From assembly GCF_000744815.1 (NCBI RefSeq), contig NZ_JQMQ01000005.1, positions 5,971,801-6,035,800 on the forward strand: a stretch of 64,000 nt of DNA, given 5' to 3'. Numbering within the stretch: position 1 is the first letter of the stretch; each line of letters starts with the position of its first letter. This stretch comes from Phaeacidiphilus oryzae TH49. Its GTDB lineage: Bacteria; Actinomycetota; Actinomycetes; Streptomycetales; Streptomycetaceae. Both the position numbers and the translations under genes were made by a program. Shown here piece after piece: positions 1 to 16,650 of the stretch. The notes under the pieces are model-generated. The model did no database searches and had not been told where the DNA came from. It saw only the letters and a program-made list of their open reading frames with translations.

Positions 1-93
1 AGGGTGGGCGGTTAGTGCCCGGCGCAGGGATTCTGCGGCGGGGATGGCGGTGGGGGGCTGGTCGGTGGTGGGGGCTGCTGGGCTCTCGGACAT
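1..93 (-). CDS. Start of an unidentified protein, cut by the left window edge
   Basis: Only the first 31 codons are visible, beginning MSESPAAPTTDQPPTAIPAA. An ATG at 93 is preceded on the minus strand by GAAGGG at ribosome-binding distance. The gene lies downstream of the wall-hydrolase gene on the same strand, after a 144-base gap that holds no other gene, so it is probably part of the conjugation gene run. The Pro/Thr/Ala-rich start suggests a flexible N-terminus. The function cannot be told from this fragment. Confidence 0.4.
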   Translation of the reverse strand, partial: MSESPAAPTTDQPPTAIPAAESLRRALTAHP

Positions 94-237
94 GGTGGGA
101 CCCTTCGGGGTGCTGGTGAAGTTGAGGTCCCGGCGCCGGGGTGGCCCGTGCGGTGCGCTCCGTGTTGATCGGGCCGGTCTCCATGCACGCTCTGCTCTGG
201 GGTGTTCGTCAAGTCGGTGACTGGGGTGATGGGTTGC

Positions 238-1206: not shown

Positions 1207-1216
1207 GGGGCGCGGG

Positions 1217-2274
1217 TCAGGGTTGGCGGAGGAGGCCGGTGGGCCAGGCGGTCTCCGGCGTTGTCGGGGACGGGGCGGGGAGCGGGGAGGGGTCTGCGGT
1301 GTGGGGGAAGTCGGGGTCGGGGCGGTGGGTGGCGGGGAAGGCGTCGGGGAGTTGGGGGAGGGTCGTGCGGTGGGCGGGGTGGCCGAGGGGGAGCCAGACG
1401 GGCCGGTCGGGGGTGCCGAGGTCGCGGGCGGTGGTTGCGGCGGCGATATGGGCGAGGGCGGGGTGGTGGCCCAGGCGCTGGTGGAGGTGGGCTTCTCGGC
1501 GGGCGCTGTGGACGCTGAACAGGACGAGGGGTCGGGCTCCGGTGGCGTGGGCGGCCTCGGCGTAGGCGTCGAGCTTGGCGGCGAGGCGGGCGTGGGGTTC
1601 GGTACCGGTGTCGTACTCGAGGAAGAAGGCCGTCTCGCCGCCGGGGTGGGTGAGCCGGGCGTGCGCGTCGGGTTGGACGAGGTCGCCCCAGATGCGGGTG
1701 CAGCGCGGTTCGGACCACCAGCGGGTCAGCCGCACTGTCGAGGCGTGGCCGCCGTTGCTGGCGCCGTCGTGGTTGCCGGGGGTCTGGGGGCGGGCGAGGT
1801 GGGTGAGGAGGTCGTTGCAGCCGAGGTCGTGGGTGAGGGTGGGCCGGTAGGCGGTGCGGGAGGCGTGTTCGGGGTGCCAGCCGAGGGCGGCGGGGGTGGT
1901 GGCGTGGCGCAGGGCGAGGAGTTGGGCGCCGACGTGGCCGAGGACGTAGGTCTCGGGGGCGGAGCCGACGGGGAGGCGGAGGCGGAAGGAGTCGAGGAGT
2001 CCGAGGCGGTGGAGGGCGGCCAGGCGGCGGTTGGCGGTGCGGTGGCCGGTGAAGGCCAGGTGGGTGATCTGATGGCTGGTCAGGGCGGTGTGCTCGGCGA
2101 GGACGTCGAGGAGCCACAGGTCGCGCGGGGTGAGGCGGGCGGCGAGGGCGGAGAGCGGGGTGCGGCGGCGTCCGCCTCGGGAGCTGGTGCGGGAGGCCGG
2201 GGCGTCGGGGGTGGTGGGGCCGCGCCGGATGGTGACGGCGGGGCGGATCGGGGCTGGGGGTGGGGGTGCGGCAT
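1217..2274 (-). pseudogene. Replication-relaxation-type protein, reading frame broken by an apparent one-base loss
   Basis: The conserved body reads in one frame from about 2190 down to 1217. It contains RDLWLLDVLAEHTALTSHQI, a winged-helix-like start, then HRTANRRLAALHRLGLLDSF and a C-terminal part starting RLTRWWSEPRC. This resembles the replication-relaxation family found on actinobacterial plasmids and integrative elements. That frame has no upstream ATG or GTG. The natural start is the ATG at 2274, which overlaps the TGA of the coupling-protein gene (TGATG), but it reads in the neighbouring frame (MPHPHPQPRSAPPS) and stops near 2080. Losing one base between about 2150 and 2250 would explain this. 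The intact protein would be about 350 residues. A GTG at 1735 could start a 172-residue C-terminal piece. Confidence 0.6.
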
Positions 2275-4757
2275 CAGGAACTCCTGTTCTTCTTGGGCGG
2301 GGTGGCGGCGCCGGAAGCCTGTCGGTGGCGCGTGGGCGCGCCCGGGCCGAAGTTGCGGCGCGAGGCGTGGCGGGCGGCGGTGGCCCGGCCGCGGACGGGG
2401 GCGGGCAGTGGGTCGGTGCGCAGGGTGAAGGCGGGGGTGTTGGCGGCGTCGGCGACGAGGCGGGCGGCGGCCTGGTAGGCGCCGAGGTGGGAGAGGTCGT
2501 GGGCGGTCAAGTGTGGGGCGACGTGGCGTTCCAGGGCGCGGGCGTCCTCGGGGGAGGCGTTGAAGAAGACCTTGCTGCGGGCGTTGGCGGAGATGCCTTC
2601 GCGCAGGTCGGTGGGGAGTTGGGCGAGGTTTTGGTGGGCCAGGACGAGGGAGAGGCGGTAGCCGCGGGCCTCGGCGAGCATGTCCTCCAGCGGGTACGGC
2701 AGGGTGAGGAAGTTGTGCGCCTCGTCGAGGATCAGTGCGGCGTCGCGGCGTTGGTGTTCGCCGGCGTCGGCGCGGTGGGCGGCGGCCTGCCAGGTCTTGG
2801 CGACGATGAAGGAGCCGAGCAGGCGGCAGGTCTCCTCGCCGAGGACGCCCTTGGGCAGGCGGATCAGGGCGATGCCGCCGTCCAGGACGTGGTCGAGGTC
2901 GAAGGTGGAGGGGCCGGAGGCGATGGTGTCGGTGACGAAGGAGCGCAGCAGGAAGGCGCGGAGCTTGTTCATCAGCGGGCCGATCGCCGCCGCGCGGGAG
3001 GGTTCGGAGAGTTGTTCGTACCAGGTCCAGAAGCCGCGCAGGGTCTTGTCGGCGCCGGACAGGCCGGCCACGGCGCGGTGGCGGTAGGGGGCCTCGGTCA
3101 GCAGGCGGGGGATGTCGGCGAGGGTGACCTGGGCTCCGGCGGTGGGGCTGGTCATCAGGGTGAGGCAGGCGGCGCGCATCACGTCGTCGGTGCGCGGTCC
3201 CCAGAAGGCGGTGAAGATCCGGCGGAAGATGCCGACCAGGTTGTCGGTGACGACGTCGGCGGCGGCGCGGTCGCCCTCCAGGACGTTCAGCCGCGGGGGC
3301 GGGGCGTGGTCGCCGGGGTCGAGCAGGACGGTGCGGTCCAGGGCGTGCTCGGGGAGGCGGGAGAGGAGGTCGAGGACGAGGTCGCCCTTGGGGTCGACGA
3401 CCAGGACGCCGCGGCCGGCGTCGGCGTCGGCGAGGGCGAGCTGCGCCAGCAGGGTGGATTTGCCGGAGCCGGTGGCGCCCATGATGTGCAGGTGGTGGCG
3501 GGCGTCGGGGACGGCCAGGCCGATGCGGCGCGGGGGTCCCAGCTCGGCGCGGCCCAGGGGCTTGACGTGGGGGCCGGGGGCGGGGATCGGGATGGGCGGG
3601 GCGGTGGAGCGGGCGCCGGCCCGGGCCACGCCGGGGGCGTCGACGTCCAGCGGGAGGTGGGCGAGGGCGGCCAGCTCGGGGACGGACAGCAGGTCGCCGC
3701 GCAGCGGGAAGTGACGGGCCGTCATGACCTGGTAGGGGTGGGGCAGGCGGTGGCGCGCGTACCAGTTGCGGCCGGAGTAGACGGCGAAGCTGGAGGCGGT
3801 GGCGTGCGCGAGGGAGCGCGCCCGGCCGCGCGCGCCGGACGGGTCGCCGTCGGCGCCGGTACGGGCGGTGGCGGCGTAGCGCAGACAGGTCTCCCATTGC
3901 GGGCCGGCGGCCTTGGTGAGGGCGGCGCGCAGGTGGGGGCCGTGTTCGGGGTCGAGGGCGTGCGGGCTGCCGGTGCGCTGGGGTTGGTGGGTGAGCCAGT
4001 CCAGCAGGGCGGTGGCGCGGTGCGGGCCGGTGCGGCCGCTCTTCCAGGCGCGCAGCCGGTGTTTGGCGCGGGCCGCGCGGGCGCCGGTGGCGGGGCGGGC
4101 AAGGACCTGCACGGTGATCTCTTCGCCACCGGCCACCGCGCTGCCGGCGGCCAGGAGCGCGCGCAGCGGGTCCGTCTCGTGCTGGTGGTGCAGCGGCAGG
4201 ATCTCCGGTCGGGCGAGGCGAAGGACGCCGCCGGTGGTGTGCACCGGGCCCGGCCGGTGCGGGTCGGGCGGGGGTGCGGCACGGGGCGGAGGGAGGGGAC
4301 GGGGGCGGGTGTGGGCTCCGGGCCAGGCCGCCTCGACGGCGCGTTCCAGCAGGACGGGCGGCAGCGTCCCGGGGGCCCACAGGCACAGGGCGAGTCCGCG
4401 GGTGGTGAAGCGGTACTCGAGGACGAGGTGGGTCTGGCGGCCGGCGGCGCGCGACCACCACGGGCGCAGCAGTCCGACCAGGTGGGACCAGAAGGCCTCG
4501 GCGGCGGACGGGTCGATCTCGGGCGGGGCGAGGATCTCGGTGAGGTAGCCGTCGGCGGTCAGTCGGCGCTGCGCGCGGTGGTGCAGGAGGCGGCGTGCGG
4601 CCGCGGTGAGCGCGTACGTGCCGGCGGCGGTCGCGGCGAGGGCGGGGGCGTGCGCGGTGAGTGCGGGGGCGAGGTGCTGGGGCCAGCGGCTGAGCGGGCC
4701 GGTGGGGTCGAGCAGCCAGCGGCCCAGCGGGCCGCCGCCGGTCGCGGTGTGGTTCAC
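2274..4757 (-). CDS. VirD4/TraD-like type IV coupling ATPase
   Basis: An 827-residue protein. The GTG start at 4757 is preceded by GGAGGAGA and overlaps the end of the VirB4-like gene by four bases. Walker A is GATGSGKST near residue 425, a Walker B-like LILDEAHNFL lies near residue 675, and VLAHQNLAQLP follows as expected for the sensor region of FtsK/VirD4 ATPases. The N-terminal ~50 residues contain a hydrophobic stretch (APALAATAAGTYALTAAARR) that may hold it at the membrane. In T4SS families this ATPase brings the relaxosome or single-stranded DNA to the channel. The overlaps on both sides suggest one translationally coupled operon. It is not a TraB-type hexameric dsDNA translocase. Confidence 0.88.
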   Translation of the reverse strand: MNHTATGGGPLGRWLLDPTGPLSRWPQHLAPALTAHAPALAATAAGTYALTAAARRLLHHRAQRRLTADGYLTEILAPPEIDPSAAEAFWSHLVGLLRPWWSRAAGRQTHLVLEYRFTTRGLALCLWAPGTLPPVLLERAVEAAWPGAHTRPRPLPPPRAAPPPDPHRPGPVHTTGGVLRLARPEILPLHHQHETDPLRALLAAGSAVAGGEEITVQVLARPATGARAARAKHRLRAWKSGRTGPHRATALLDWLTHQPQRTGSPHALDPEHGPHLRAALTKAAGPQWETCLRYAATARTGADGDPSGARGRARSLAHATASSFAVYSGRNWYARHRLPHPYQVMTARHFPLRGDLLSVPELAALAHLPLDVDAPGVARAGARSTAPPIPIPAPGPHVKPLGRAELGPPRRIGLAVPDARHHLHIMGATGSGKSTLLAQLALADADAGRGVLVVDPKGDLVLDLLSRLPEHALDRTVLLDPGDHAPPPRLNVLEGDRAAADVVTDNLVGIFRRIFTAFWGPRTDDVMRAACLTLMTSPTAGAQVTLADIPRLLTEAPYRHRAVAGLSGADKTLRGFWTWYEQLSEPSRAAAIGPLMNKLRAFLLRSFVTDTIASGPSTFDLDHVLDGGIALIRLPKGVLGEETCRLLGSFIVAKTWQAAAHRADAGEHQRRDAALILDEAHNFLTLPYPLEDMLAEARGYRLSLVLAHQNLAQLPTDLREGISANARSKVFFNASPEDARALERHVAPHLTAHDLSHLGAYQAAARLVADAANTPAFTLRTDPLPAPVRGRATAARHASRRNFGPGAPTRHRQASGAATPPKKNRSS

Positions 4758-6544
4758 GTCTCCTCCTGGTGGATGCCGGTGAGCAGGAGGTCCTCCTCGC
4801 GCGGGGAGGCGAGGGAGCGGAACGCGGCCCGCTGGCCGGGGCCGGCGCACAGCAGGGCCTCGCCCGGGGCGGCGGAGGCGAGGTAGGCGGCCTCGCCGGC
4901 GGAGAGGTGGAAGGCGTCGATCACCGCGTCCAGGGCCTGGGGGGACTGGCGGAGCAGGATCTGGGTGGCGGCGTTGGCGGCCACCGCCCTGCCCAGGTCG
5001 GTGGCGAGGACGTCGGCGACGTCCTGGGTGACGACGGCGAGTCCGGCGCGGTGCTTGCGCGCGGACTTCGCCATCCGGAACAGGAAGCTCGCGCCGTGTC
5101 CGTCGCGCATCAGCTGCCAGGCCTCGTCCACGACGACCAGGCGGCGGCGCGGGGCGGCCGGGTCGGTGACGGTGCGCCAGATCCGGTCCAGGGCGAGCAG
5201 GGTGCCCGCCCCGGCGAGCTCGTCGGGCAGGGCTCGCAGGGAGTAGGAGACGAGGTGGCCGGCGGGCGCGGTGGTGGTGGGGCCGGTGAAGAGCTGGGCG
5301 TGCGAGCCGGTGGTGAACGGGGTGAGGCGGGCGGCGAGGGCGGCGCCGGGGGTGCTGCCGCCGCGAGTGCTGTCGCCGGGGGCGCCGTCTCCGCCGGGGA
5401 CTGTGTCGCCGTCGGCGGCGAGGTGGCGTTGCAGGTCGGCCAGGAGCGGGGCGGGGCGGGCGTGGGTGCGGATGTCGGTGGTGATGCCGGCCTCGCGGTA
5501 GGCGGCCAGGACCGCCCGGTCCAGTACGGCCCGCTCGTCGGCGTCCAGGGCGCTGCCGAGCAGCACGGCCAGGAAGGTGTGGGCGAACAGGGCGCGGCGC
5601 ATGAGCGCCTGCTCGCCGTCGGCGCGGTCCAGGTCGAGCGGGTTGAGGTGGACGCCGCCGGTGCCCAGGGCGATGACGGTTCCGCCGGCGGCGCGGGCCA
5701 GCGCGGTGTACTCGTCCTCCGGGTCGACCAGGTGGGCCTCGACGCCGGTGTAGAGCTGGCGCAGCACCTCCAGTTTGGTCAGGTAGGACTTGCCGGCGCC
5801 GGAGCGGGCGAGGGTGAGCGAGTTGTGGTTGTCCAGCGCCCAGCGGTCCCACAGCAGCAGCGAGTCGCCGCCGGTGATCCCGTACAGCACGCCGCCGCAG
5901 GGCGGGGTGGGCAGGGCGGGGGAGGAGAAGGGGAAGGCGGCGGCCAGGGCCGCGGTGTCCATGGTGCGGGCGGCGCCGATCTCGTCCAGGCCGAGCGGCA
6001 GGCAACTGGTCCAGCCCTGCAGCGGGCGCCAGGTGCAGGGGGCGGTGCGCAGCAGCATCGACTCGGCGATGGCGCGCACCGCGGAGACCTCGTCGGCGAG
6101 TCGGGCCTCGGTGTCGGAGTAGACGGTGAGGTAGAGGGCGGTGCGGAAGAGCTTGCCCTCGCCGCGGGCGACCCGCCAGGCCAGCTCGGCCGCGTCCTCG
6201 GCGGCGGCCTCGGTGTCCGGGTCCTCCAGCCGGCCGTGCCGCCAGGTGACGCGGCGCTCGGACTCCAGGCGGGCGCGGCTGCGGCGCAGCCGGTCTGCGG
6301 CGACCGCGGCCGGGACGGGTTCGATGTGCACGGCGAGGTCGAGCCGTCCGGGGTAGGACAGAAGCGGGTCCAGCCAGCCCGGCCCGACCTCCGCCGGGTA
6401 GCCGGTGACCTGCAGCGGCGCGGCCAGCAGATCGCCGACGGCGAGATGGCGGGGCGCCAGTTGGACGCTGTCCGGGCCCAACATCGGCTCGGCCGGGGCC
6501 GGTTGGTCGGTCGGCGGGAAGAGGCCCGCGAGGAAACCGGTCAT
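4754..6544 (-). CDS. VirB4/TraC-like conjugation ATPase
   Basis: A 596-residue ATPase with Walker A in ARSGAGKSYLTKLEVL near residue 248, followed by HLVDPEDEY, and a Walker B RRLVVVDEAWQLMRD region near residue 465. These are the signatures of VirB4-family ATPases that power type IV secretion. It follows the PrgI-like membrane gene with a four-base overlap and itself overlaps the coupling-ATPase gene. An ATG in a different frame at 6548 was set aside because only the ATG at 6544 gives the family sequence MTGFLAGLFPP. The residue motif TQDVADVLATDLGRAVAANA matches the usual region after Walker B. Confidence 0.88.
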   Translation of the reverse strand: MTGFLAGLFPPTDQPAPAEPMLGPDSVQLAPRHLAVGDLLAAPLQVTGYPAEVGPGWLDPLLSYPGRLDLAVHIEPVPAAVAADRLRRSRARLESERRVTWRHGRLEDPDTEAAAEDAAELAWRVARGEGKLFRTALYLTVYSDTEARLADEVSAVRAIAESMLLRTAPCTWRPLQGWTSCLPLGLDEIGAARTMDTAALAAAFPFSSPALPTPPCGGVLYGITGGDSLLLWDRWALDNHNSLTLARSGAGKSYLTKLEVLRQLYTGVEAHLVDPEDEYTALARAAGGTVIALGTGGVHLNPLDLDRADGEQALMRRALFAHTFLAVLLGSALDADERAVLDRAVLAAYREAGITTDIRTHARPAPLLADLQRHLAADGDTVPGGDGAPGDSTRGGSTPGAALAARLTPFTTGSHAQLFTGPTTTAPAGHLVSYSLRALPDELAGAGTLLALDRIWRTVTDPAAPRRRLVVVDEAWQLMRDGHGASFLFRMAKSARKHRAGLAVVTQDVADVLATDLGRAVAANAATQILLRQSPQALDAVIDAFHLSAGEAAYLASAAPGEALLCAGPGQRAAFRSLASPREEDLLLTGIHQEET

Positions 6545-7458
6545 GCAAGGACTCCAGGGGCGATCACGGGGCGTCCGGGCAGCGCCGGGTCGGGACTGGG
6601 CGGCGGGGCGGCCGGATCGCACGCCGCCTCCAGCGCGGTCCACGCGGCGCCGGCGTCCAGCGGGGTAACGGGGACCTCGGCGGCGGCCAGCAGCCCGGAG
6701 CTCTCCGCGGCCCGGGCGTGCAGGCGCGCACCGGCCGCCGAGTCCGGCCCGGATTCGCGGTGAACGAGCAGGACCTGACGGGTCAGCAGGCAGGGCTGCT
6801 CGCCGAGGGCGGCGAGGAAGGCGGCGTGGTCGAGCGCGGCCTGTTCCAGCAGCGGATGCGGCAGTCCGCGGGCGGCGTGCTCCAACTCGCCGATCCGAGC
6901 GGCGAGATCGAGACGGTGGGCACGTACCAGGATCTGCACCGGTCCGGTCAGGCCGTTCAGCCAGCGGCCCATCGCGCCCAGCAGTCCGCGCTGCTCGGCG
7001 CGGGTGCGCAGGGCGAGGTTGACGGTGCCCGCGCGGCTCAGCAGCGCCCGAGTGCCGTCGGCCAGGGCGAGGACGCCGTCGTCGGCCACGGAGATGATCG
7101 GCAGCCGCAGCGCCGCCAAGGGGGCCGGAAGTTGCTGGGGGGCGGAGGTCGGGACCAGGCGCTTGGAAGAGCGGTGGTGGCGCAGCGCGGCGGCCAGCCA
7201 GCGATCCATGCCCACCCCGTCCCGCCTGGCGAGCACCACCGCGGCGGCCACGGCCAGCACCAGGCCCGCGCCGACCGCGTAGAAGAGCGGTGGTACCCAC
7301 GGCCGACCCGCCTGCCAGCCGATCCACAGCGCCGCGCCGACGGCGCCGAGCTGGACGCATTGACGGGTGGTCAGATTGCCGATCAGACGGTCCTGGTGGT
7401 CCACCGCCGGGATCTTCACCAGCGACTCCCACGCCTCGTTCTCGCTTTCGCGGGCCAT
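6541..7458 (-). CDS. PrgI-like (SCO6880-type) inner-membrane protein of the conjugation channel
   Basis: A 305-residue protein with two adjacent hydrophobic segments at about 38-55 and 58-77 (LGAVGAALWIGWQAG and FYAVGAGLVLAVAAAVVLA), then a long soluble domain. The N-terminal signature KIPAVDHQDRLIGNLTTRQC matches the start of SCO6880/PrgI-family proteins, which are VirB3-like parts of Gram-positive T4SSs and almost always stand directly before a VirB4 ATPase, as here. The start ATG at 7458 overlaps the previous stop as TGATG. The soluble domain (ALADGTRALLSRAGTVNLAL) has no recognised catalytic site. Confidence 0.82.
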   Translation of the reverse strand: MARESENEAWESLVKIPAVDHQDRLIGNLTTRQCVQLGAVGAALWIGWQAGRPWVPPLFYAVGAGLVLAVAAAVVLARRDGVGMDRWLAAALRHHRSSKRLVPTSAPQQLPAPLAALRLPIISVADDGVLALADGTRALLSRAGTVNLALRTRAEQRGLLGAMGRWLNGLTGPVQILVRAHRLDLAARIGELEHAARGLPHPLLEQAALDHAAFLAALGEQPCLLTRQVLLVHRESGPDSAAGARLHARAAESSGLLAAAEVPVTPLDAGAAWTALEAACDPAAPPPSPDPALPGRPVIAPGVLA

Positions 7459-9392
7459 CAGCTCCTCTTCCTCTTCTTCCTTCTCGTGCTCGCGGGGTGC
7501 GCTGTCTGGTGGCGGTAGGGGCGGGGCGGTTCGGAGGCGTCGTCATCCATCGGGGGACGCAGCCGTACCGGTCTGGGCCGGGGCGCCGGCGGCGATCCGG
7601 TGGTCGGCGGCACGGGCGGGCTGCCGGGGGTTGGGTGCGGCGGTGCGGAACCGCCGGCCGGCGTGCCTGCCGTTCCTGTCGGGGCATCGGGGTCTGGCGT
7701 CGGTCTGGTCCCGGGCAGGCCCGGCTGCGGCGGTACCCCGGAGGGCGAGGGCGGAGACGACGGGGCGGAGGTGGATCTGCCCGGACCGTCGGCCGACGGT
7801 CCCGTTCGGGTCCCCGGGCTTCGGCCGCGTCGCTTCGCCCCTCCGCTCGCGGGACTGCTCGGTGCGCCGCGAGGCGGGCTGGCCGGTACGGGCCCTCCGC
7901 CGGGAGCGGCGCCAGGACCACTACTGGAGGGCGCGGTGCCGGGAGCGGGCCCCGCCGGTCCGCCGCCGCCAGGCGCTGCGGTGGGGTTACCAGTACTTCC
8001 GGAACCGCCGGGCACGGCAGGGGAGTTGGGCCCGCCTGCTGGGCCGCCGGGGCTCCTGGGGCCCCCTCCGGAAGGGGGAGAGCCGCCGGGCCCAGGCCTC
8101 TGCGGCCCACGGCCGGGGCCCCGGGCCCGGCCGGAACCGGCCCGGCGCCTGCCCGTGAAGCCGAGGAGCCCGCCGGACATGCCGGCCCTCCCGGCCAACT
8201 GGGCGCCGAGTCCGTACACGCCGAAGGGCCCGAGCAGCATTCCCAGGGCGACCTTGCGCAGGAGGTGGAGGGAGCCGCGCGGGTTGCCGAGCGTCTGGTG
8301 GATCGGGTTGGTGATCAGCGACCGGGTCCAGGCAGGGATCTTCAGCAGCAGGTACAGGCAGGCGCCGAGCACCAGCAGGTTCACCAGCGAGGCGGCGTTC
8401 GGCTCGCCGTACAGCGGGTAGTTGGCGGGGTCGAGGGTGACCTTGACCGCGGTGAGGAAGACGATCGCCTGCATGATCTGGATGGCCAGGACCGCGGTGA
8501 ACGCCCGCCACCACATCCGCGCCACCGGCTCGGTCCCCGGGGTGGCATGGCAGGCCAGCGCCAGCGGGGCGGCCACCACCAGGACGGTGAGCACCGCGAT
8601 CCGCACCACCAGGGTGAGTGCGAGGGCCAGCCCCAGCGCGGCGACGATCAGGCCGAGGGCGACGGCGTACAGCGGGGCTGTGGTCGAGTTGACGTTCGTC
8701 ACCAGCCCGACCAGGGTCCCGGCGAGATCGTCCGGGGTGATGCCGTCCCCGAACACCGCCTGCGCGATCGCGTTGGCCAGGGTGATGGCCTGATGGGTCA
8801 ACAGCAGCGAGAGGTTGGCGGCCAGCATCCCCCAGGCCAGCCGCGGCAGCAGCTCCCGCAGCGGGTAGCGCTGCTGGATGGTGCCGTGTCCCATCGCGAG
8901 CACTGCGGCGGCGAGCACCAGCAGCCCGTACAGCGAGCAGGCCAGCAGCCGCAGCCCGTCCCACAGTTCGCGCACCCGCGGCAGCACGGTCGGGTCCGGC
9001 GCGGCCAGCAGCAGCCGCACCACCGTGTTGAGGATCGGGGTGATGCTGGAGGCCAGCAGGTCCGCGAGGAACCCGGTGATCGCGGCCTTGATCTGTCCGG
9101 GGATGTCGAACGGGTCCGAGCCGCCCGGCTGGGGATTGGGGGAGGCCGGCGGGGCCAGTCCGCCCCCGGCGGGCGGGGCCGGCCGCGACTTGTTCGGCTC
9201 CGGGGCCGGGTGGGGGTTCGGCGAGGGGCCCGGAGAGGGGGAGGGGACCGCCGTGGCGCCGGGCGCGGGCGATGACGGCCCCGGGCCCGCCGGGGCCGCG
9301 GCAGCCGGCGGAGCGGCGAGCAGCAGGGCAGTCAGCGCGACCAGCACAGCAGCGAACTCGGCGACCCCGTGCGCGGGGCGGCGGGACGTCAT
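7458..9392 (-). CDS. VirB6/TrbL-like multi-spanning conjugal transfer membrane protein
   Basis: A 644-residue protein with a secretion signal at residues ~10-30 and a Pro/Ser-rich segment to ~75. A membrane domain of about six hydrophobic helices follows (for example LACSLYGLLVLAAAVLAMG and ALGLALALTLVVRIAVLTVL). The remaining ~270 residues are a low-complexity Gly/Pro/Ser tail ending in basic RRKKRKRS. This layout is typical of VirB6/TrbL channel proteins in actinobacterial elements. The ATG at 9392 overlaps the pilin stop (ATGA). The long disordered tail makes the reading frame easy to misassemble, but it stays open throughout. Confidence 0.8.
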   Translation of the reverse strand: MTSRRPAHGVAEFAAVLVALTALLLAAPPAAAAPAGPGPSSPAPGATAVPSPSPGPSPNPHPAPEPNKSRPAPPAGGGLAPPASPNPQPGGSDPFDIPGQIKAAITGFLADLLASSITPILNTVVRLLLAAPDPTVLPRVRELWDGLRLLACSLYGLLVLAAAVLAMGHGTIQQRYPLRELLPRLAWGMLAANLSLLLTHQAITLANAIAQAVFGDGITPDDLAGTLVGLVTNVNSTTAPLYAVALGLIVAALGLALALTLVVRIAVLTVLVVAAPLALACHATPGTEPVARMWWRAFTAVLAIQIMQAIVFLTAVKVTLDPANYPLYGEPNAASLVNLLVLGACLYLLLKIPAWTRSLITNPIHQTLGNPRGSLHLLRKVALGMLLGPFGVYGLGAQLAGRAGMSGGLLGFTGRRRAGSGRARGPGRGPQRPGPGGSPPSGGGPRSPGGPAGGPNSPAVPGGSGSTGNPTAAPGGGGPAGPAPGTAPSSSGPGAAPGGGPVPASPPRGAPSSPASGGAKRRGRSPGTRTGPSADGPGRSTSAPSSPPSPSGVPPQPGLPGTRPTPDPDAPTGTAGTPAGGSAPPHPTPGSPPVPPTTGSPPAPRPRPVRLRPPMDDDASEPPRPYRHQTAHPASTRRKKRKRS

Positions 9393-9736
9393 GCGCCGAC
9401 CAGGCCCTTGAGGATCCCCACCAGGACCGGGGCGAGAATGGCGAGCATGTAGCCGATCGCGGCCGACTTCAACGCCGTCTTGGCTTTCTCCACCTCGCCC
9501 GGGTCGCCCCCGGCCATCAGGTAGCGCAGCCCGCCGATGGTCAGGAACAAGGTCGCGAGCGCGGCGAGCAGACCGACGATCCAGTGGGTGATGTTGGCGA
9601 TCGTCTGATCCACGCTGTTCACCGCGAGCAGCGAGACGGCGTACGCGGACGGGCAGTTCAGCAGACCCACGACACCCGCAACCACTGGGCAGGCGAGGAC
9701 GACGGAGGCTGCGGGCGGATGGCGGGGCACGGGCAT
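9389..9736 (-). CDS. VirB2/TrbC-like conjugative pilin
   Basis: A 115-residue protein with two main hydrophobic helices after an N-terminal signal. The helices lie at ~45-70 (HWIVGLLAALATLFLTIGGL) and ~90-112 (AAIGYMLAILAPVLVGILKG), separated by the short loop RYLMAGGDPGEVEKAKTALK. The GGDPGEVEKAK loop is characteristic of VirB2/TrbC-type proteins in actinobacterial T4SS loci. The start ATG at 9736 has GGAG upstream on the minus strand. It is the first gene of the coupled operon that continues down to the wall hydrolase, so the promoter should lie in 9737-10034. Confidence 0.78.
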   Translation of the reverse strand: MPVPRHPPAASVVLACPVVAGVVGLLNCPSAYAVSLLAVNSVDQTIANITHWIVGLLAALATLFLTIGGLRYLMAGGDPGEVEKAKTALKSAAIGYMLAILAPVLVGILKGLVGA

Positions 9737-10034
9737 CGGACCACGCTCCTGCGAATGCACGGACGGATGGACAAGCGGGGGGAGGAGTTGGAGTCGGGGC
9801 CGGCATCGGGGCGGCGGCAGAGGGAGAGGTGACAGGCCGGTCCGGGGCGCACGACGCGGGCCGGGCGCGGACGAGAGCGGGCCGCGGGCCCTCACCTCCC
9901 TCACGGGATCGCGGTGCGGGCGGCGTGGAGGGGTGTCAGCGCCTCCCGGCGGACCCCGCTCCCGTCCGCGGCGGCCTGGCGCACGCCCCGGACCGGGCCT
10001 GTCACCTGCTAAAGCGCTCTCAGGGGCCCCGGCA
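9737..10034. promoter_or_regulatory. Intergenic region expected to hold the conjugation-operon promoter
   Basis: About 300 bases separate the pilin start from the end of the HTH regulator gene on the same strand. No reading frame here is supported by a start, ribosome-binding site and family-like sequence. No clear -35/-10 pair was recognised. The regulatory role is inferred only from position at the head of a coupled operon. Confidence 0.3.
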
Positions 10035-10838
10035 TCAACCCTCGATCAAGTGCTCGACCTCGGTGAAGGCCAGCGCCCCGGAGGTGATCGCGCTGGCCAG
10101 CCGGGCCTCCGCACGGCGCCGCCGCTTGTCGATCGCCTGCGGGGACATCCCGGCCTGTTCGGCCAGTGTTCGAGTCGACACCCCGCCCAGGCGGTAGTCC
10201 CCGACCAGCGCCGCGTCCCGGGCGCCGATCACCCCCTGACGCACCGCCAGCGACAGCAGCGCGTCCGGATGGATCGGCTGCCGCCGCGCCTCCGCCGGCG
10301 CGTCCGCCAGCTCCGCCTGCCGCGCCGCGAGCACCGCCTCCCGCTCGCGGTAGGTGCGGGCCGCCCGATCCGCGGCCCACACGACCCGCGCCGGGATCCT
10401 CCCGGCCTCCTCGGGCGGGGCCTGCCGGGCCACCGCCAGCGCGGACCACGCCGCTTCGATGATCACCTGCTGCAGGTCGAGGTTGTGCCCGGGCAGCATG
10501 CGGCACACCCGCGCGGCCACCCGGCGCAGACCCCAACCGACCATCCCCAGACAGGCCAGCCGCCACGACTCCGCCTCCGGCCCCTCCCCGCCGGCCAGTT
10601 CGCTCAGATGCCGCCAGATCGCGGTGCGCGCCGGATACCCGAGCGAGGGATGCAGCAGCAGCGAGCGCAGCGTCACCACGTCCACCTCCTCCTGCGGCAG
10701 CCCGGCATGCAGATGCCCGATCTTCACCGTCAGGGGTTCCGGACGCGCGGCCAGGCACTGGAACTCCAACTCCACCCGCCGCAGCGGCTCCACCGCCGCC
10801 CCCGCGGACTCCGGCACCTGGTACGAGAAAGCGCTCAT
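10035..10838 (-). CDS. Regulator-like protein with a sigma-region-4-type C-terminal HTH
   Basis: A 267-residue protein starting MSAFSYQVPESAG at the ATG 10838. The N-terminal ~170 residues are helical and not assigned to a family. Residues ~200-255 (LGGVSTRTLAEQAGMSPQAI followed by the basic DKRRRRAEARL) look like the helix-turn-helix of a sigma-70 region 4 or LuxR-like module. It lies between the conjugation operon and the divergent methyltransferase pair, on the strand of the transfer genes. It is therefore a candidate regulator of conjugation or of the divergent gap. No -10/-35-recognition region 2 is visible, so it is not called a sigma factor. Confidence 0.55.
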   Translation of the reverse strand: MSAFSYQVPESAGAAVEPLRRVELEFQCLAARPEPLTVKIGHLHAGLPQEEVDVVTLRSLLLHPSLGYPARTAIWRHLSELAGGEGPEAESWRLACLGMVGWGLRRVAARVCRMLPGHNLDLQQVIIEAAWSALAVARQAPPEEAGRIPARVVWAADRAARTYREREAVLAARQAELADAPAEARRQPIHPDALLSLAVRQGVIGARDAALVGDYRLGGVSTRTLAEQAGMSPQAIDKRRRRAEARLASAITSGALAFTEVEHLIEG

Positions 10839-11264
10839 CGGCGCGACTCCCCTCTGGGACGGGCGACCCGGGCGGCCGCCTCGCCACCAGATCGCCAGAG
10901 CCCATCCGGACAGCCCCCGGATCACCTCCGGACAGCCCGCGCCCGCTCCCGGGACGGGTCCGGGAAGGCTTCGGGACGCGATCTGGACGACACCCCGCCC
11001 GCCATCCAGAACTCACCCAGATCTCGGCGCTGACCAGCGCAAACCCTGCCCGTGCCCGCCGAGTTCACCACCCCGGACGGTCCGCCCGAAAGATCCCGGA
11101 ACTTCACCCGCGCCTCGACTTGCCACCCTGCCCGGACCCGCCGCCACCCGCCCGGCGTTCGTATGACTTTCCCCCGATCACCCAGCCCGTTGTCCGAAAC
11201 CGCCGCCCCGGCCACGTTTTAGGGATCGTCAGCGCCTTCCCGGCGACCGCCGGGCCCACCGCAC
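10839..11264. promoter_or_regulatory. 426-base divergent intergenic region of the element
   Basis: It separates the minus-strand HTH gene from the plus-strand methyltransferase pair. The motif TCCGGACAGCCC occurs twice about 22 bases apart near 10905-10940, and the stretch around 11160-11225 is less GC-rich than its surroundings. Open frames here lack start signals and look like shadows. It most likely carries two divergent promoters, and the repeated motif is a possible operator. This is inferred from layout. Confidence 0.3.
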
Positions 11265-12107
11265 ATGACCCGACCCACCCCCGGCTCAACCCCTGCCCCT
11301 GCCCCCGGCACCGGCACCGGCCGTAGCCCCCACCGCCCCGTGACCGGAGCCGACCGCCGCGCCCGCGAACGCGCCGCCCAGCGTGCCGCCGCCCACCGCC
11401 GCCCCACCCCGATCACTGTCTGGCTCACCCAGCCGCCCACCGGCTGCTGCCCGCACTGCGCCGACCCGACCGCCGCAGCCTGCGCCCACCGCATCCCTCT
11501 GGACCTGGCCGCCCAGCTGGTCACCGCCTTCACTCGCCCCGGCGACCTCGTCTACACCCCCGACGCCGGCAACGCCGCCCTCCCCATCGCCGCTGCCTGC
11601 GCCCGCCGCCGCGCCCTCGCCCACGCCCCGACCGCCGAGGCCGCCCGCCGCACCCACGCCGCCATCCATGAACACGCCGCCGACGCCGCCGCCCTGGCCG
11701 CCGTCCGCCGTGCCGAACCCCGCGCCCTGCCCGACCTCGCCGCCCGCGCCCGCACCCGCGCCGCCCTGGCCGTGCTGGCCCCGCACCACCCCGCCGCCCC
11801 GGCCGACGTGGCCTGCCTGGCCGAGGCCTGCGCCCGCAGCCTCGCCCCGGGCGGCGTCCTGGCCCTCATCTCCCGGCAGAGCGCCGGCGGCCCCGAACTG
11901 GCCGGCCACCTGGTCACCCACGCCCAGGCCACCGGGCTGATCTACCTCCAGCACATCGCCGCCGTCGAGGCCGAAGCCCGCGGCGAGACCCTCCACCCCC
12001 GCCCCCGCCCCCGGCATCAGCCCGGCGACCACGGCCCCGGCTGCGCCTGCGCCCGCCCCGGCCACCGGCTCGTCCACCACGACATCCACATCCTCCAGGC
12101 CCCCTGA
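11265..12107 (+). CDS. Degenerate paralogue of the adjacent DNA methyltransferase
   Basis: A 280-residue protein, 47 bases before a real methyltransferase gene. Its segment VWLTQPP...LVTAFTRPGDLVYTPDAGNAALP parallels the neighbour's VWLTAQQ...IRAYTRPGDVVLDPMCGIGTT, so the fold is probably shared. However, the SAM-binding DPMCGIGTT has become TPDAGNAALP and the catalytic SPPY has become APHHP. A Cys/His cluster GCCPHCADPTAAACAH (~61-76) and a second CACARPGHRLVHH near the C-terminus could bind zinc. Seen: loss of both catalytic motifs. Inferred: a non-catalytic partner or DNA-recognition subunit co-transcribed with the active enzyme. The start ATG at 11265 lacks a strong Shine-Dalgarno sequence. 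Confidence 0.6.
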   Translation: MTRPTPGSTPAPAPGTGTGRSPHRPVTGADRRARERAAQRAAAHRRPTPITVWLTQPPTGCCPHCADPTAAACAHRIPLDLAAQLVTAFTRPGDLVYTPDAGNAALPIAAACARRRALAHAPTAEAARRTHAAIHEHAADAAALAAVRRAEPRALPDLAARARTRAALAVLAPHHPAAPADVACLAEACARSLAPGGVLALISRQSAGGPELAGHLVTHAQATGLIYLQHIAAVEAEARGETLHPRPRPRHQPGDHGPGCACARPGHRLVHHDIHILQAP

Positions 12108-12154
12108 CGCCCCGCCAGCCCAGCCTCTCCCGCCCGCACCACCCCGGAGGACCC

Positions 12155-13117
12155 GTGTCCCAGCACCAGCCCCACCGCGGCGACACCCGCGACATCGACG
12201 AGCTGCCCACCTCGGTCTGGCTCACCGCCCAGCAGGACTCCCGCACCCAACGCACCGGCCGCTACCTGCCCGCCGCCATCGCCCACCCCGGCAAGATGCT
12301 CCCCGCCATCGCCCGCCACGCCATCCGCGCCTACACCCGCCCCGGCGACGTCGTCCTCGACCCGATGTGCGGCATCGGCACCACCCTCGTCGAGGCCGCC
12401 CACCTCGGCCGCCACGGCGTCGGCATCGAACTCGAACCTCGCTGGGCCGTCCTCGCCCGCGCCAACCTCCAGCACGCCCACACTCAGGGCGCCGAGGGCG
12501 CCGGCACCGTCTACCGCGGCGACGCCCGCGACGCCGACCGCATCGTCAACCCCGAACTCCACGGCACCGCCCGCCTCCTGCTCACCTCACCCCCCTATGG
12601 CCCCTCCACCCACGGCCACGTCCGCTCCAGCCGCGACTCCGGCAACCCCGGCGTCGCCAAGTTCCACACCGACTACGGTCACACCGCCGGCAACCTCGCC
12701 GACGCCCCCACCGACGAACTCGTCGACGCCTTCACCGAGATCCTCCGCTCCAGCCTCCCCCTCCTCGCCGACGACGCGATCGTCGCCGTCACCGCCCGCC
12801 CTTGGCGCCGCCGCGGCGAACTCGTCGACCTCCCCGCCGCCGTACTCGCCGCCGGCCGCGCCGCAGGCCTCGTCCCCCTGGAGCGCTGCGTCGCCCTCCT
12901 CGCCGCCGTCCGCGACGGCGACCTCGTCGCCCGCCCCTCCTTCTTCCAGCAGAACAACGTCCGCGCGGCCCGCACCAACGGCGTCCCCCTGGCCTGCATT
13001 GCGCACGAAGATGTGCTGGTCATGGCGGTGTCGACCGATGGGTCCCACGAGCGAGCCCGGTGCTCGGAGGCGCCGCACACCCCGTTCGCTGAACGATGCC
13101 TCCGGGCATCCCGATGA
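12155..13117 (+). CDS. Site-specific DNA methyltransferase (N4-cytosine or N6-adenine, SPPY type)
   Basis: A 320-residue enzyme starting at GTG 12155 behind CGGAGGAC. Motif I, the SAM-binding loop, is DPMCGIGTTLVEAA near residue 70. The catalytic motif IV is LLTSPPYGP near residue 147, preceded by a GDARD motif. SPPY favours N4-cytosine or beta-class N6-adenine methylation of DNA. No restriction endonuclease gene is visible nearby, so it acts as an orphan methyltransferase of the element. It may protect transferred DNA from host restriction. The last ~35 residues (SHERARCSEAPHTPF onward) look unlike the family, and base composition changes at about 13,030, so the 3' end may have been altered by recombination. 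Confidence 0.82.
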   Translation: MSQHQPHRGDTRDIDELPTSVWLTAQQDSRTQRTGRYLPAAIAHPGKMLPAIARHAIRAYTRPGDVVLDPMCGIGTTLVEAAHLGRHGVGIELEPRWAVLARANLQHAHTQGAEGAGTVYRGDARDADRIVNPELHGTARLLLTSPPYGPSTHGHVRSSRDSGNPGVAKFHTDYGHTAGNLADAPTDELVDAFTEILRSSLPLLADDAIVAVTARPWRRRGELVDLPAAVLAAGRAAGLVPLERCVALLAAVRDGDLVARPSFFQQNNVRAARTNGVPLACIAHEDVLVMAVSTDGSHERARCSEAPHTPFAERCLRASR

Positions 13118-13130
13118 GCTCGCGGTATCG

Positions 13131-13391
13131 GTGGTGATCCCTGTCGGCGGGCAAACGAATGGGGAGCGGCCAGGGGACTCCGCAGGTTCTACCTCGGCCG
13201 AGAAAGAATCGACCTCACCTGAGTCCGCGCCGGAGGTGAGCGCGGCGGGCTGCTCACCCCCGACGGTTCAGCGCTGCTGGCGTCACCGTGACTTCTCGCC
13301 GCGTGAGCGGGCGCAACTCGCGGAAATCCTAATCAGCGGGTTGCTGCGAGAGTTGCCGGAGGGGTTTGTCCAAGAATGCGGGACACCGTAG
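13131..13391 (+). CDS. Possible small hypothetical protein before the recombinase
   Basis: An 86-codon frame from tandem GTG codons at 13131/13134. The C-terminal part RERAQLAEILISGLLRELPEGF is plausibly helical. It occupies most of the 371-base gap between the methyltransferase and recombinase genes, where base composition is less GC-rich than in the methyltransferase. Genes placed like this beside a serine recombinase are sometimes excision factors, but nothing in the sequence shows that. There is no convincing ribosome-binding site. Confidence 0.3.
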   Translation: MVIPVGGQTNGERPGDSAGSTSAEKESTSPESAPEVSAAGCSPPTVQRCWRHRDFSPRERAQLAEILISGLLRELPEGFVQECGTP

Positions 13392-13392
13392 A

Positions 13393-13410
13393 GCGTCAGC
13401 CCGCTGACGC
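13393..13410. terminator. Hairpin upstream of the recombinase gene
   Basis: A perfect 7-base inverted repeat GCGTCAG / CTGACGC separated by CCCG. It lies directly after the stop at 13391 and about 80 bases before the recombinase start. It could be a small intrinsic terminator or a protein-binding site. No T-tract follows. Confidence 0.4.
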
Positions 13411-13488
13411 GTATGGTCCATGGAGCTCGCCGCCCCCGGGTTCGCACTGTCGGCCTGGGGGCTCGCCATGGGATGAAGGGGAAGAGCT

Positions 13489-15561
13489 ATGCCTCGTACG
13501 ATGCCTCATCGCGATCACGGCCTTGGTCCGCGGGAATCGACGGTCGCGATCTATCTGCGCGTTTCCTCCGCGAAGCAGCTCCGTGGGTACGGTCTCGATG
13601 TCCAGCTCGACGAGTGCCGGGCCTGGTTGGACTTCCGCGTCGGAAAGGGCAAGTACACCGCCGAGGTCTACACCGACGGTGGTGTGTCCGGGAAGCTGGC
13701 TAACCGGCCCGGACTGGACCAGCTCAACCAGGACGTGGCCGCCGGCAGGATCGGCCTCGTGGTGTTCGGGAAGCTGGACCGGATCGGCCGTACGATGAAG
13801 CACATTCATCGCTGGGTCTACGACACCACCGATCTCGGGGTGCGCATCGCGACCGCCGACGGGCGGATTGACAGCGATGACGAGATGTTCGGCATCCAGC
13901 TGAGCCTGCTCGCCTATATGGCAGAACTCGAGCACGCCATGATCCTGGACCGGACGGTCGGCGGCCGGGAGAAGAAGCTGGCGGCCGGAGGATGGCCCGG
14001 CGGCGTCGCGCCCTTCTGGCTCAAGCTGCCGCCCCCGGGAGTCGTGGCCGTGCCCACCCTGCGACCGGAAAAGGTCAAGCTGCTTGAGACGGCGGCCAGG
14101 CTGATCGTCGACGAGCATCACAACGGTGAGCAAGCAGCGCGTGCCCTGAACGCACTGGAGATGACCACCGCACGCGGGTTGCCCTGGTGCGGGGCCACCC
14201 TCATCCGTACGTTCAGGGAGACCGCGCTGGACGGCTACATCATCTACCGCAACACGGAGCGGGTGCACGGCACGACTCTGCGCCGGGACGCCGAGGGAAA
14301 CCCGCTCTACGGTGAGACGACGCACATTCCAGTTCCGATGCCGCTGCCCGCCGAACGCGTGGCCCAGGTGCGGCGGGCGCTGGACCAGAGGTCGTTCCGC
14401 ACGACCAGACTCAAGCAGTACATCCTGTCAGGCCGCATGCAATCGCCCTGCGGCTGCAAGTACGTAGGAAACCATCGCGCTGAGCGCGATCGGACCACAT
14501 ACCGGTGCACCGGTCGGAGGTCCACCCCTCCGTGCAAGTGCCGGGAGATCCTCGCAGCCCCGATGGAGCGCCTGGTGTGGTCGGAAGTCAGCCCGATCAT
14601 TGGCGACGCGAAGCATCTGGCGGCACTCGCCGCGGAGTGGCTCGGCTCGGTGCCTGAACGAGCGCAGGCCTATCGCGAGCGGATCGCGGAGCTGGACGCG
14701 CAGATCGAACGGAGCCGCAACACACGGAAGCGGAAGCTCATGGGGCTGGCCGCGGCTTTCAGCGCTGCGGCCGACAGCGCCGAGGACGGCACTGATGAGG
14801 ACATTCAGCGCGCGATCACGGAGATGCGGCTGGAACTCCGGGAGAAGGAGAGGAAGCTCGTCGCGATGCGGGAGGATACCGCCGCCCGACTCGGTGACGC
14901 GGAAGCGCAGGAGACCCGGGCTAAGGAGATCCTCGGGCTGATCTCGAAGGCGGCTCCTCGGCTGGCAGATCTGGCGTACGAGCAGAAGTGCGAACTCCTG
15001 GATCTGCTCGATGTGCGCATTCAGATCACCAGCGACCACTCCGGACAGCTACGCCCCGCGGGCTGTCCGTTCGAAGAGTGGTTCAGGTCCCGGGACGCGC
15101 TGGTGCCACCACCGCTGAGCGATGAGCAATGGCGGCGAGTCGAGGGATGCTTCCCGGCACCCAGGAAGGCCAGGGGAGTCATTCAACCGAGGGTGGCGTT
15201 CGAGGCGTCCTTGATGAAAGTGCGGGACGGGCTCCAGTGGACAGATCTGCCGACGTCGTTCGGGCGTCAACTCAGCGTGTATCAGCGGGCGCTGACCTAC
15301 TTCCACGACGGAGAGTGGGAGCAGGCCGTCCGGGCGCTCGGGGATTGCGGGGGGACGCCGGTGCCTCGGCGATATGTCTTGCCCGGCTTCAAGATCACAG
15401 GGTCCTTCGACATGCGTCTCCGCCGGGAATCGACGAACACATGTGAGGGGCCCGGCCAGCATGTTTCAAGCTCTTCACCGCGTACCCCGGGGTCTTCCTC
15501 TCCGACGACGGGCAGATCCTGCGGGCGATGCAGCGGGCCGCCAGGAACGGCGGGCTGGTGA
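13489..15561 (+). CDS. Large serine recombinase (integrase) with a C-terminal IS5-type DUF4096-like domain
   Basis: A 690-residue frame with ATG 13489 after GGGGAAGAG. Residues ~20-165 are the catalytic resolvase domain: AIYLRVSSAKQ carries the nucleophilic Ser, followed by GKLDRIGRTM and ELEHAMILDRT. A recombinase domain covers ~180-300, a zinc-ribbon-like CGCKYVGN...CTGRRSTPPCKC ~320-350, and a coiled coil ~385-480 (RIAELDAQIERSR and LRLEKERK-like repeats). Residues ~543-617 (LSDEQWRRVEGCFPAPRKAR to ALTYFHDGEWEQAV) match the N-terminal helical domain of IS5-family transposases. From about residue 659 the frame reads through the attachment junction into the hydantoinase gene in another frame, so the final ~31 residues are chromosome-encoded. 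It should catalyse integration and, with a partner, excision of this element. Confidence 0.9.
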   Translation: MPRTMPHRDHGLGPRESTVAIYLRVSSAKQLRGYGLDVQLDECRAWLDFRVGKGKYTAEVYTDGGVSGKLANRPGLDQLNQDVAAGRIGLVVFGKLDRIGRTMKHIHRWVYDTTDLGVRIATADGRIDSDDEMFGIQLSLLAYMAELEHAMILDRTVGGREKKLAAGGWPGGVAPFWLKLPPPGVVAVPTLRPEKVKLLETAARLIVDEHHNGEQAARALNALEMTTARGLPWCGATLIRTFRETALDGYIIYRNTERVHGTTLRRDAEGNPLYGETTHIPVPMPLPAERVAQVRRALDQRSFRTTRLKQYILSGRMQSPCGCKYVGNHRAERDRTTYRCTGRRSTPPCKCREILAAPMERLVWSEVSPIIGDAKHLAALAAEWLGSVPERAQAYRERIAELDAQIERSRNTRKRKLMGLAAAFSAAADSAEDGTDEDIQRAITEMRLELREKERKLVAMREDTAARLGDAEAQETRAKEILGLISKAAPRLADLAYEQKCELLDLLDVRIQITSDHSGQLRPAGCPFEEWFRSRDALVPPPLSDEQWRRVEGCFPAPRKARGVIQPRVAFEASLMKVRDGLQWTDLPTSFGRQLSVYQRALTYFHDGEWEQAVRALGDCGGTPVPRRYVLPGFKITGSFDMRLRRESTNTCEGPGQHVSSSSPRTPGSSSPTTGRSCGRCSGPPGTAGW
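15444..15470. other. Right attachment junction (attR) of the integrative element, within a hydantoinase gene
   Basis: In the hydantoinase frame a TGA at 15444-15446 ends any upstream reading. From 15465 the codons TTC AAG CTC TTC ACC GCG TAC CCC spell the conserved FKLFTAYP block of dihydropyrimidinases. Element DNA therefore gives way to chromosomal DNA somewhere within about 15447-15467. The shared core and the crossover dinucleotide cannot be fixed from one junction. The matching attL, carrying the 5' part of the gene, must lie to the left of the window. Confidence 0.75.
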
Positions 15562-16406
15562 TGACCCACGCCGAGAACGGCCTCGCCATCGACGTCCTGG
15601 TCGAACAGGCCCTGGCCCGGGGGGAGACGGACCCGCGCTACCACGGCGAGGTCCGCAAGGCCCTGCTGGAGGCCGAGGCCACCCACCGGGTGATCCGCCT
15701 GGCCCAGGTCGCCGGGGCGCCGGTCTACGTCGTCCACGTCTCCGCGCAGGAGGCGGTGACCGAGATCGCCCGGGCCCGCGACGACGGCCTCCCGGTCTAC
15801 GGCGAGACCTGCCCGCAGTACCTCTTCCTGTCCACCGACAACCTCGCCGAGCCGGACTTCGAGGGCGCCAAGTACGTCTGCTCCACCCCGCTGCGCCCCC
15901 GAGAACACCAGGCGGCCCTGTGGCGGGCCCTGCGTACCAACGACCTCCAGGTGGTCTCCACCGACCACTGCCCCTTCTGCTTCAAGGGCCAGAAGGAGCT
16001 GGGCCGCGGGGACTTCTCCAAGATCCCCAACGGCATGCCGGGCGTGGAGAACCGGATGGACCTCCTCCACCAGGCCGTGGTCGACGGCCACCTCACCCGC
16101 CGCCGCTGGATCGACATCGCCTGCGCCACCCCCGCCCGGATGTTCGGCCTCTACCCCCGCAAGGGCACCATCGCCCCCGGCTCCGACGCCGACATCGTCA
16201 TCTACGACCCCAACGCCCGCCAGACCCTCTCCGCCGCCACCCACCACATGAACGTCGACTACAGCCCCTACGAGGGCAAGGAGATCACCGGCGCCGTCCA
16301 CACCGTCCTGTCCCGAGGCGTCCCCGTCATCACCGACCACGAGTACGTCGGCCACCCCGGCCACGGCGTCTTCCTGCCCCGCAGCCTCACCCGATACCCG
16401 GGATAG
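15465..16406 (+). pseudogene. hydA: 3' part of a dihydropyrimidinase / D-hydantoinase gene, cut by the element
   Basis: The frame encodes about 313 C-terminal residues of an amidohydrolase-fold hydantoinase, which is normally ~465 residues. It starts at the FKLFTAYPG block, whose Lys is the carboxylated metal bridge in this family. It continues with GLVMTHAENG (His ligand), VYVVHVS (His ligand), ETCPQYLF, VSTDHCPF (Asp), PNGMPGVENRMDLL and the C-terminal KGTIAPGSDADIVIYDPN. The N-terminal ~150 residues with the HxH zinc site are absent, and the first in-frame start is inside the domain, so no active enzyme is expected while the element is integrated. Precise excision would restore it. The gene belonged with the F420-type oxidoreductase and NCS1 transporter 9-12 kb downstream. 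Confidence 0.85.
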
Positions 16407-16535: not shown

Positions 16536-16650
16536 TGACAGTCCTCCGTGCGATGAAGCCGCCCGGTGGCAACCTGCGGGCTGGTGATGACCCACGCCGA
16601 GAACAGGCTGATTGTCGACATCCTGGTCGAGCAGGCCCCCGGGAGGGCAC
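16536..16650 (+). pseudogene. Second, degenerate hydantoinase gene remnant
   Basis: About 115 bases resemble 15512-15635 of the neighbouring hydantoinase fragment. They include a 29-base exact match (15550-15578 and 16576-16604) encoding GLVMTHAEN. The surrounding bases are diverged (ENRLIVDILVEQAPG against ENGLAIDVLVEQALA) and the frame is lost on both sides. It is a leftover of a duplicated hydantoinase gene or of an earlier rearrangement at this insertion site. No gene is visible in the surrounding 16407-16812. Confidence 0.7.

Follow-up and report, generated by a model that had tools for sequence, protein, structure and literature searches.

A serine-recombinase element that splits a dihydropyrimidinase gene at its catalytic lysine codon and carries a complete spare copy

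Introduction

Mobile elements are thought to limit the harm they do through their choice of integration sites, which fall in tRNA genes, at gene ends or in dispensable genes. Integrases that use gene ends without disruption and serine recombinases that disrupt dispensable genes have both been described (review PMC5704250). The locus analysed here, in Phaeacidiphilus oryzae TH49, has features of both groups. Like the ICEs, IMEs and prophages that enter the 3′ or 5′ end of a tRNA or protein gene and restore that end, its element is site-specific for a conserved gene and would cause no net loss of function, but its site is internal, at the active site of the encoded enzyme, and it supplies a complete gene rather than an end (contrast PMC5704250). 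Like the serine-recombinase IMEs of dispensable genes (rumA and others), it uses a serine recombinase to enter an internal site of a conserved gene, which is split; those IMEs are described as disrupting (PMC5704250), whereas this element brings a full replacement. The gin element in gerE also splits a coding sequence (PMC5595907, in excerpt) and restores its gene by excision, in contrast to the supply of a gene while integrated that we describe below.

A complete replacement copy may be a third solution beside gene-end use and dispensable-gene disruption. In the literature searched, which took in few subscription journals and is therefore weak evidence of novelty, we found neither a description of this solution nor a precedent for attachment sites in hydantoinase/dihydropyrimidinase genes or for elements carrying a replacement of their own target. 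Engineered gene drives with a recoded rescue break their target and carry a functional copy that is re-spelled at the target site. The element considered here differs in being natural and bacterial, and in using site-specific recombination and probably conjugation instead of a nuclease; the resistance of its altered copy is predicted from sequence.

Results

A hydantoinase gene split at its catalytic lysine codon

The stretch of DNA analysed (the window) comprises 64,000 nucleotides of the P. oryzae TH49 genome (G000; contig C5:5971801-6035800). The original prediction described a serine recombinase frame followed by a hydantoinase frame that begins at the FKLFTAYPG block and lacks about 150 N-terminal residues. 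This is indeed how the locus reads: the 3′ part of the hydantoinase/dihydropyrimidinase gene (hyd) opens at 15465, at residue 151, with TTC AAG CTC TTC ACC GCG TAC CCC GGG, and its first 150 residues are missing. The left end of the element and the 5′ half of hyd, which the prediction had proposed to look for elsewhere in the genome, were both located 50.9 kb upstream on the same strand, and the two halves fit in frame. The relevant features are as follows:

15465..16406, plus strand: severed 3′ part of hyd, residues 151-463 of 463 (313 codons), with 90% nucleotide identity to the complete spare copy
15465..15470, plus strand: attR core TTCAAG (Phe-Lys codons, catalytic Lys included), common to both junctions
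C5:5935901-5936374 (L006 5902-6375), outside the window, same strand as the 3′ part: hyd 5′ half, ending at the same TTCAAG
C5:5936369-5936374 (L006 6370-6375), outside the window: attL core TTCAAG, matching the attR core
C5:5936496-5937887 (L006 6497-7888), outside the window, in the orientation of the operon: complete spare hyd gene, separated from the left end of the element by 121 bp
16542..16638, plus strand: downstream remnant of a hyd copy, 97 bases, 79% identical to the 3′ part, its best matches being the hyd copies of P. oryzae itself

The distance from attL core to attR core is 50,896 bp (C5:5936369 and C5:5987265). Rejoining the flanks at TTCAAG gives ...V T S F K L F T A Y P G V... 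with the frame intact, and the core in the predicted attP is flanked by an inverted repeat (CCAGCA...TGCTGG), which is what the site of a large serine recombinase (LSR) should show. In the dihydropyrimidinase/D-hydantoinase family, one active-site lysine is carboxylated. The lysine of the core aligns with this residue, the TS-x-K lysine of the solved enzymes (3sfw). The genes 5′ of the split hyd encode a carbon-nitrogen hydrolase and a class-III aminotransferase (Pfam), and the three genes together seem to resemble a pyrimidine or hydantoin catabolic operon.

The proposal that a site-specific element splits hyd at the catalytic-lysine codon is borne out by the TTCAAG core at both ends. It is also borne out by insertions into the same codon in further genomes, including those of other genera, which show that the P. 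oryzae junction is not a matter of chance. An assembly artefact was rejected, as other genomes have the same layout and a single contig holds both ends in G001, G002 and G138.

A complete spare gene inside the element

The original prediction went on to propose that integration turns the enzyme off and excision turns it back on. This part is not supported, because the element itself contains a second, full-length hyd gene, which lies 121 bp from the left end in the orientation of the operon and, being outside the window, was beyond the view of that prediction; the same complete copy led us to reject simple disruption of hyd by the element. The spare shares 87% DNA identity with the severed 5′ half and 90% with the 3′ half, and scores 562 bits on TIGR02033 (cut-off 393). 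Because the spare lies inside the element, excision would remove it while restoring the old gene, and the number of intact hyd genes would stay at one. Across the 11 spare copies described below, the metal-ligand and catalytic residues that were checked, core lysine included, are invariant (11/11), and dN/dS is about 0.12, a value that indicates purifying selection and is rough because dS is near saturation. A scan for promoter and terminator consensus sequences around the left junction found neither, which fits read-through, if weakly, and the spare is probably transcribed as part of the host operon.

Recurrence of the layout across genomes

A host 5′ half followed by a complete hyd gene at the same codon was found in 11 genomes (G000, G001, G002, G050, G138, G005, G232, G240, G181, G339 and G106), among them Streptomyces sp. 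JH14 (G001), S. endophytica HNM0140 (G002) and S. ochraceiscleroticus (G005). At least five of the ten besides P. oryzae also retain the far 3′ half. An LSR adjoins the same hyd codon as in P. oryzae in G001, G002, G138 and G050, where the complete gene lies 154-277 bp behind the host 5′ half; overall, the distance from core to copy is 121-277 bp and the spare is always on the element side of the core. The core is TTCAAG at both ends in G000, G001, G002 and G050, and TCAAG in G138. The elements span about 166 kb in G001, about 157 kb in G138 and about 111 kb in G002, and the left-end sequence that follows the core is common, with variation, to 10 of the 11 elements. In G005 the complete gene lies between degraded halves. 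No LSR was found at E <= 1e-60 in G232, G240, G181, G339, G106 or G005, and we therefore read the elements there as decayed. A third hyd match in G232 and in G240 is presumably the 3′ half. Damage to the severed 3′ half is evident as a frameshift in G002, a stop in G138 and a large deletion in G005, so that a switch is impossible in these three.

The element and its recombinase

The features of the element within the window are as follows:

1..15464, no strand assigned: right-hand portion of the element, which measures 50.9 kb between its TTCAAG cores; the remaining 35.4 kb precedes the window and has the spare at the left end
238..9904, minus strand: type IV secretion/conjugation module (NlpC/P60-SLT, Replic_Relax, TraG/TrwB-like coupling ATPase, PrgI, a VirB6-like membrane protein assigned by position, and a T4SS pilin; Pfam), with a homologous module in the G002 element
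12155..13117, plus strand: DNA methyltransferase (Pfam N6_N4_Mtase), with a homologue in the G002 element
13489..15561, plus strand: LSR with a C-terminal DUF4096 (IS5-type) domain (Pfam Resolvase PF00239, E = 1.6e-28; DUF4096, E = 3.9e-12), its frame crossing the attR core and stopping in host DNA

The homologues of the module and of the methyltransferase occupy the same place in the G002 element, and a homology comparison did not show the module in the G138 element. No classical relaxase was identified. On this gene content, the elements of P. oryzae and G002 may be called ICE-like at most. Upstream of the window, the P. oryzae element also encodes an Rhs-repeat protein of 2386 residues that contains a pretoxin HINT domain (L008 1048-8205) and a sugar-modification cluster (GT28, DegT aminotransferase, ATP-grasp, GDP-mannose-type epimerase and low-molecular-weight phosphatase; L007 3919-9174).

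The recombinase has a Resolvase domain and a zinc-ribbon recombinase region (PF13408, 23.2 bits, just under the cut-off of 25.3), and a short core is shared by both ends of its element; it is on these grounds a large serine recombinase. Within the body of the protein (13489-15459), DUF4096 is the N-terminal domain of IS5-family transposases; no precedent for an LSR-DUF4096 fusion was found in the literature searched, which left subscription journals mostly outside. Integration alters the C terminus of the LSR, in that the last ~30 residues and the stop codon come from host DNA (15459-15561), and the predicted circle would encode a different, shorter tail. Serine integrases of Streptomyces phages (the Haizum, Tefunt and Sentinel group) are about 40-43% identical to the LSR over at least 95% of the query. 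These are similar recombinases but belong to phages, and Haizum, the only one examined, has no annotated hyd or permease copy beside its integrase. A search of plasmids returned no relatives of the LSR at 1e-40.

Re-spelling at the attachment site

In comparisons among host genes, the att region shows less divergence than the gene as a whole (ratio 0.67). Spare-host divergence relative to host-host divergence, by contrast, is highest at the att core: at least 13 of the top 15 of 468 windows overlap or adjoin it, and nearly all 15 start at columns 156-169, the core being at column 160. Between the broken gene of P. oryzae and its own spare, the att/gene divergence ratio is 3.06, and none of 1596 host pairs is that high. 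AAA encodes the core lysine in 11 of the 21 spare-type genes but in none of the 66 host-type genes (Fisher 1.3e-8), the spare counts being not all independent since the spare clade reflects shared ancestry; at the other lysine codons of the same spare genes AAA occurs in 11 of 264 cases (4%; 8e-9 against the core). Parsimony on a tree built without the att region requires at least six independent G-to-A changes at the core. Spares with the core TTCAAA, and thus altered at the target site, are those of G000, G138, G232, G240, G339 and G106, and many of the att-site changes in spares are synonymous. GC3 is somewhat lower overall in the spare copies. There are exceptions: the G002 spare keeps TTCAAG and has an att ratio of 0.44 against its own host gene, so immunity, if real, is not universal, and the G001 spare is average (0.99). 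Re-spelling may block the element's own and related recombinases, which would make the spare a site-immune rescue copy.

Spares travel with the element and may have replaced native genes

A whole-gene tree built without the att patch places 11 of 11 element copies in one clade (support 0.957). The same spare clade is recovered when the 5′ and 3′ parts are treated in trees of their own, although the 3′ part alone supports it at only 0.63. In G001, G002, G050 and G138 the broken gene falls among host genes, apart from the spares. As judged from these trees, the spare copies travel with the element and not with the host lineage. The broken gene of P. oryzae is nested in the spare clade as sister to its own spare.

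Ten genomes have a lone spare-type hyd gene. A tree of the upstream aminotransferase, from genomes with a usable gene, scatters these among the host-type genomes and so disagrees with the hyd tree; G214, for example, is sister to G003, whose hyd gene is host-type. The simplest reading is that the lone genes are spares that replaced the native gene in place, with the element since lost or moved. G050 has a second LSR with a hyd 3′ part (L069, G050 contig 24, 8189-9121), in which the first 40 bases are heavily re-spelled (TTCAAATTGTTTATGGCATACGCCCGC) and the remainder matches host genes. This suggests that the second LSR inserted into a hyd gene that was already re-spelled.

Related recombinases in an ABC-2 permease gene

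Two relatives of the LSR (43-50% identical), one in Streptomyces sp. BV286 and the other in D2-8, lie next to the 3′ part of an ABC-2 (DrrB-like) permease gene. The severed 5′ half is in both cases followed, at a distance of a few kb, by a complete permease gene; its protein is 80-83% identical and its spelling is AT-richer around the junction. The junction in BV286 (L014) is not clean. These relatives are small (about 4-6 kb; L014 2085-7948, L015 3150-7440), and the one in L014 consists of little beyond the spare permease and the recombinase. A wider sample gave one possible further permease case, G099, in which a complete permease gene and a 3′ piece from residue 42 are about 11 kb apart.

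Discussion

Our preferred reading, to which we assign a probability of roughly 0.8, is that the LSR element breaks its hyd target yet supplies a replacement that has often been made site-immune. It would integrate at TTCAAG, the Phe-Lys codons with the catalytic lysine of the host dihydropyrimidinase gene, and split that gene. The same event would bring in a complete element-borne copy that follows the severed 5′ half after 121-277 bp, in matching orientation, and is probably read by the host operon. In many elements the att site of the spare has been re-spelled, through the core TTCAAA and/or altered flanks, such that the element's own and related recombinases presumably cannot cut it. A spare may sometimes outlive its element and become the only hyd gene of the host, which a later element could strike again.

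Several alternatives were weighed against this reading. A reversible switch, in which integration inactivates hyd and excision restores it as for the sporulation-gene intervening elements of bacilli, would account for halves that join in frame in P. oryzae, and such switches do exist, as gin in gerE illustrates (PMC5595907, in excerpt). We nonetheless consider it highly improbable here: in all the cases examined the 5′ half is followed by a complete hyd gene, so that the broken copy is never the sole copy, and in G002, G138 and G005 the severed 3′ half has decayed. We likewise give very little credence to an ordinary tandem duplication in the host into one copy of which the element merely landed. 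The two copies in P. oryzae are adjacent and 87-90% identical, and a few genomes have two full-length hyd genes elsewhere, but duplication within each host is at odds with spares from different hosts and genera that cluster together and away from the broken genes of those same hosts, and with a spare that is always found 121-277 bp from the core on the element side.

Two further alternatives accept that the spare is real. The re-spelling could have arisen by neutral divergence, or because selection on the att site was relaxed, rather than through selected immunity, as might be supposed from the spares of G002 and G001, which show no excess of att changes against their own hosts, and from the somewhat lower GC3 of spares overall. 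This we judge unlikely, given that the changes peak at the core, that the same G-to-A change arose at least six times where AAA makes up 4% of other lysine codons, and that many changes are synonymous, unlike what relaxed protein constraint predicts. The other alternative concerns P. oryzae only, where we take the spare-type broken gene and the 97-base hyd remnant, which an earlier round may have left as a scar, to reflect two invasions. The broken gene could instead be native to an unsampled lineage that was the source of the copies captured by elements. This is a less favoured but serious possibility: P. oryzae is the only genome of its genus in the sample and its aminotransferase clusters with those from other genera of the family, whereas the position of the broken gene inside the spare clade, as sister to its own spare, and the further remnant downstream (16542-16638) argue for an earlier spare.

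The supply of a replacement by the hyd element may be one case of a wider class of break-and-rescue elements, in which each recombinase family targets the middle of a conserved gene and brings a full, site-immune replacement, and in which the native gene of many species has given way through repeated rounds of insertion, spare domestication and re-targeting. With two targets seen, dihydropyrimidinase and the ABC-2 permease, we lean slightly towards this generalisation.

The target of the hyd element is a catalytic codon in a conserved catabolic gene, and the cost is met with a complete and often re-spelled copy. If re-spelling confers immunity, these elements would be a natural counterpart of the recoded-rescue gene drives. 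Where the severed host halves have decayed, losing the element's copy would mean losing the function. The elements also yield recombinases directed at a new target gene. AAA at the core lysine of single-copy hyd genes in element-free genomes would be a readable scar of past invasions, and may provide a direct, sequence-based route to the long-term evolution of such drives and of resistance to them.
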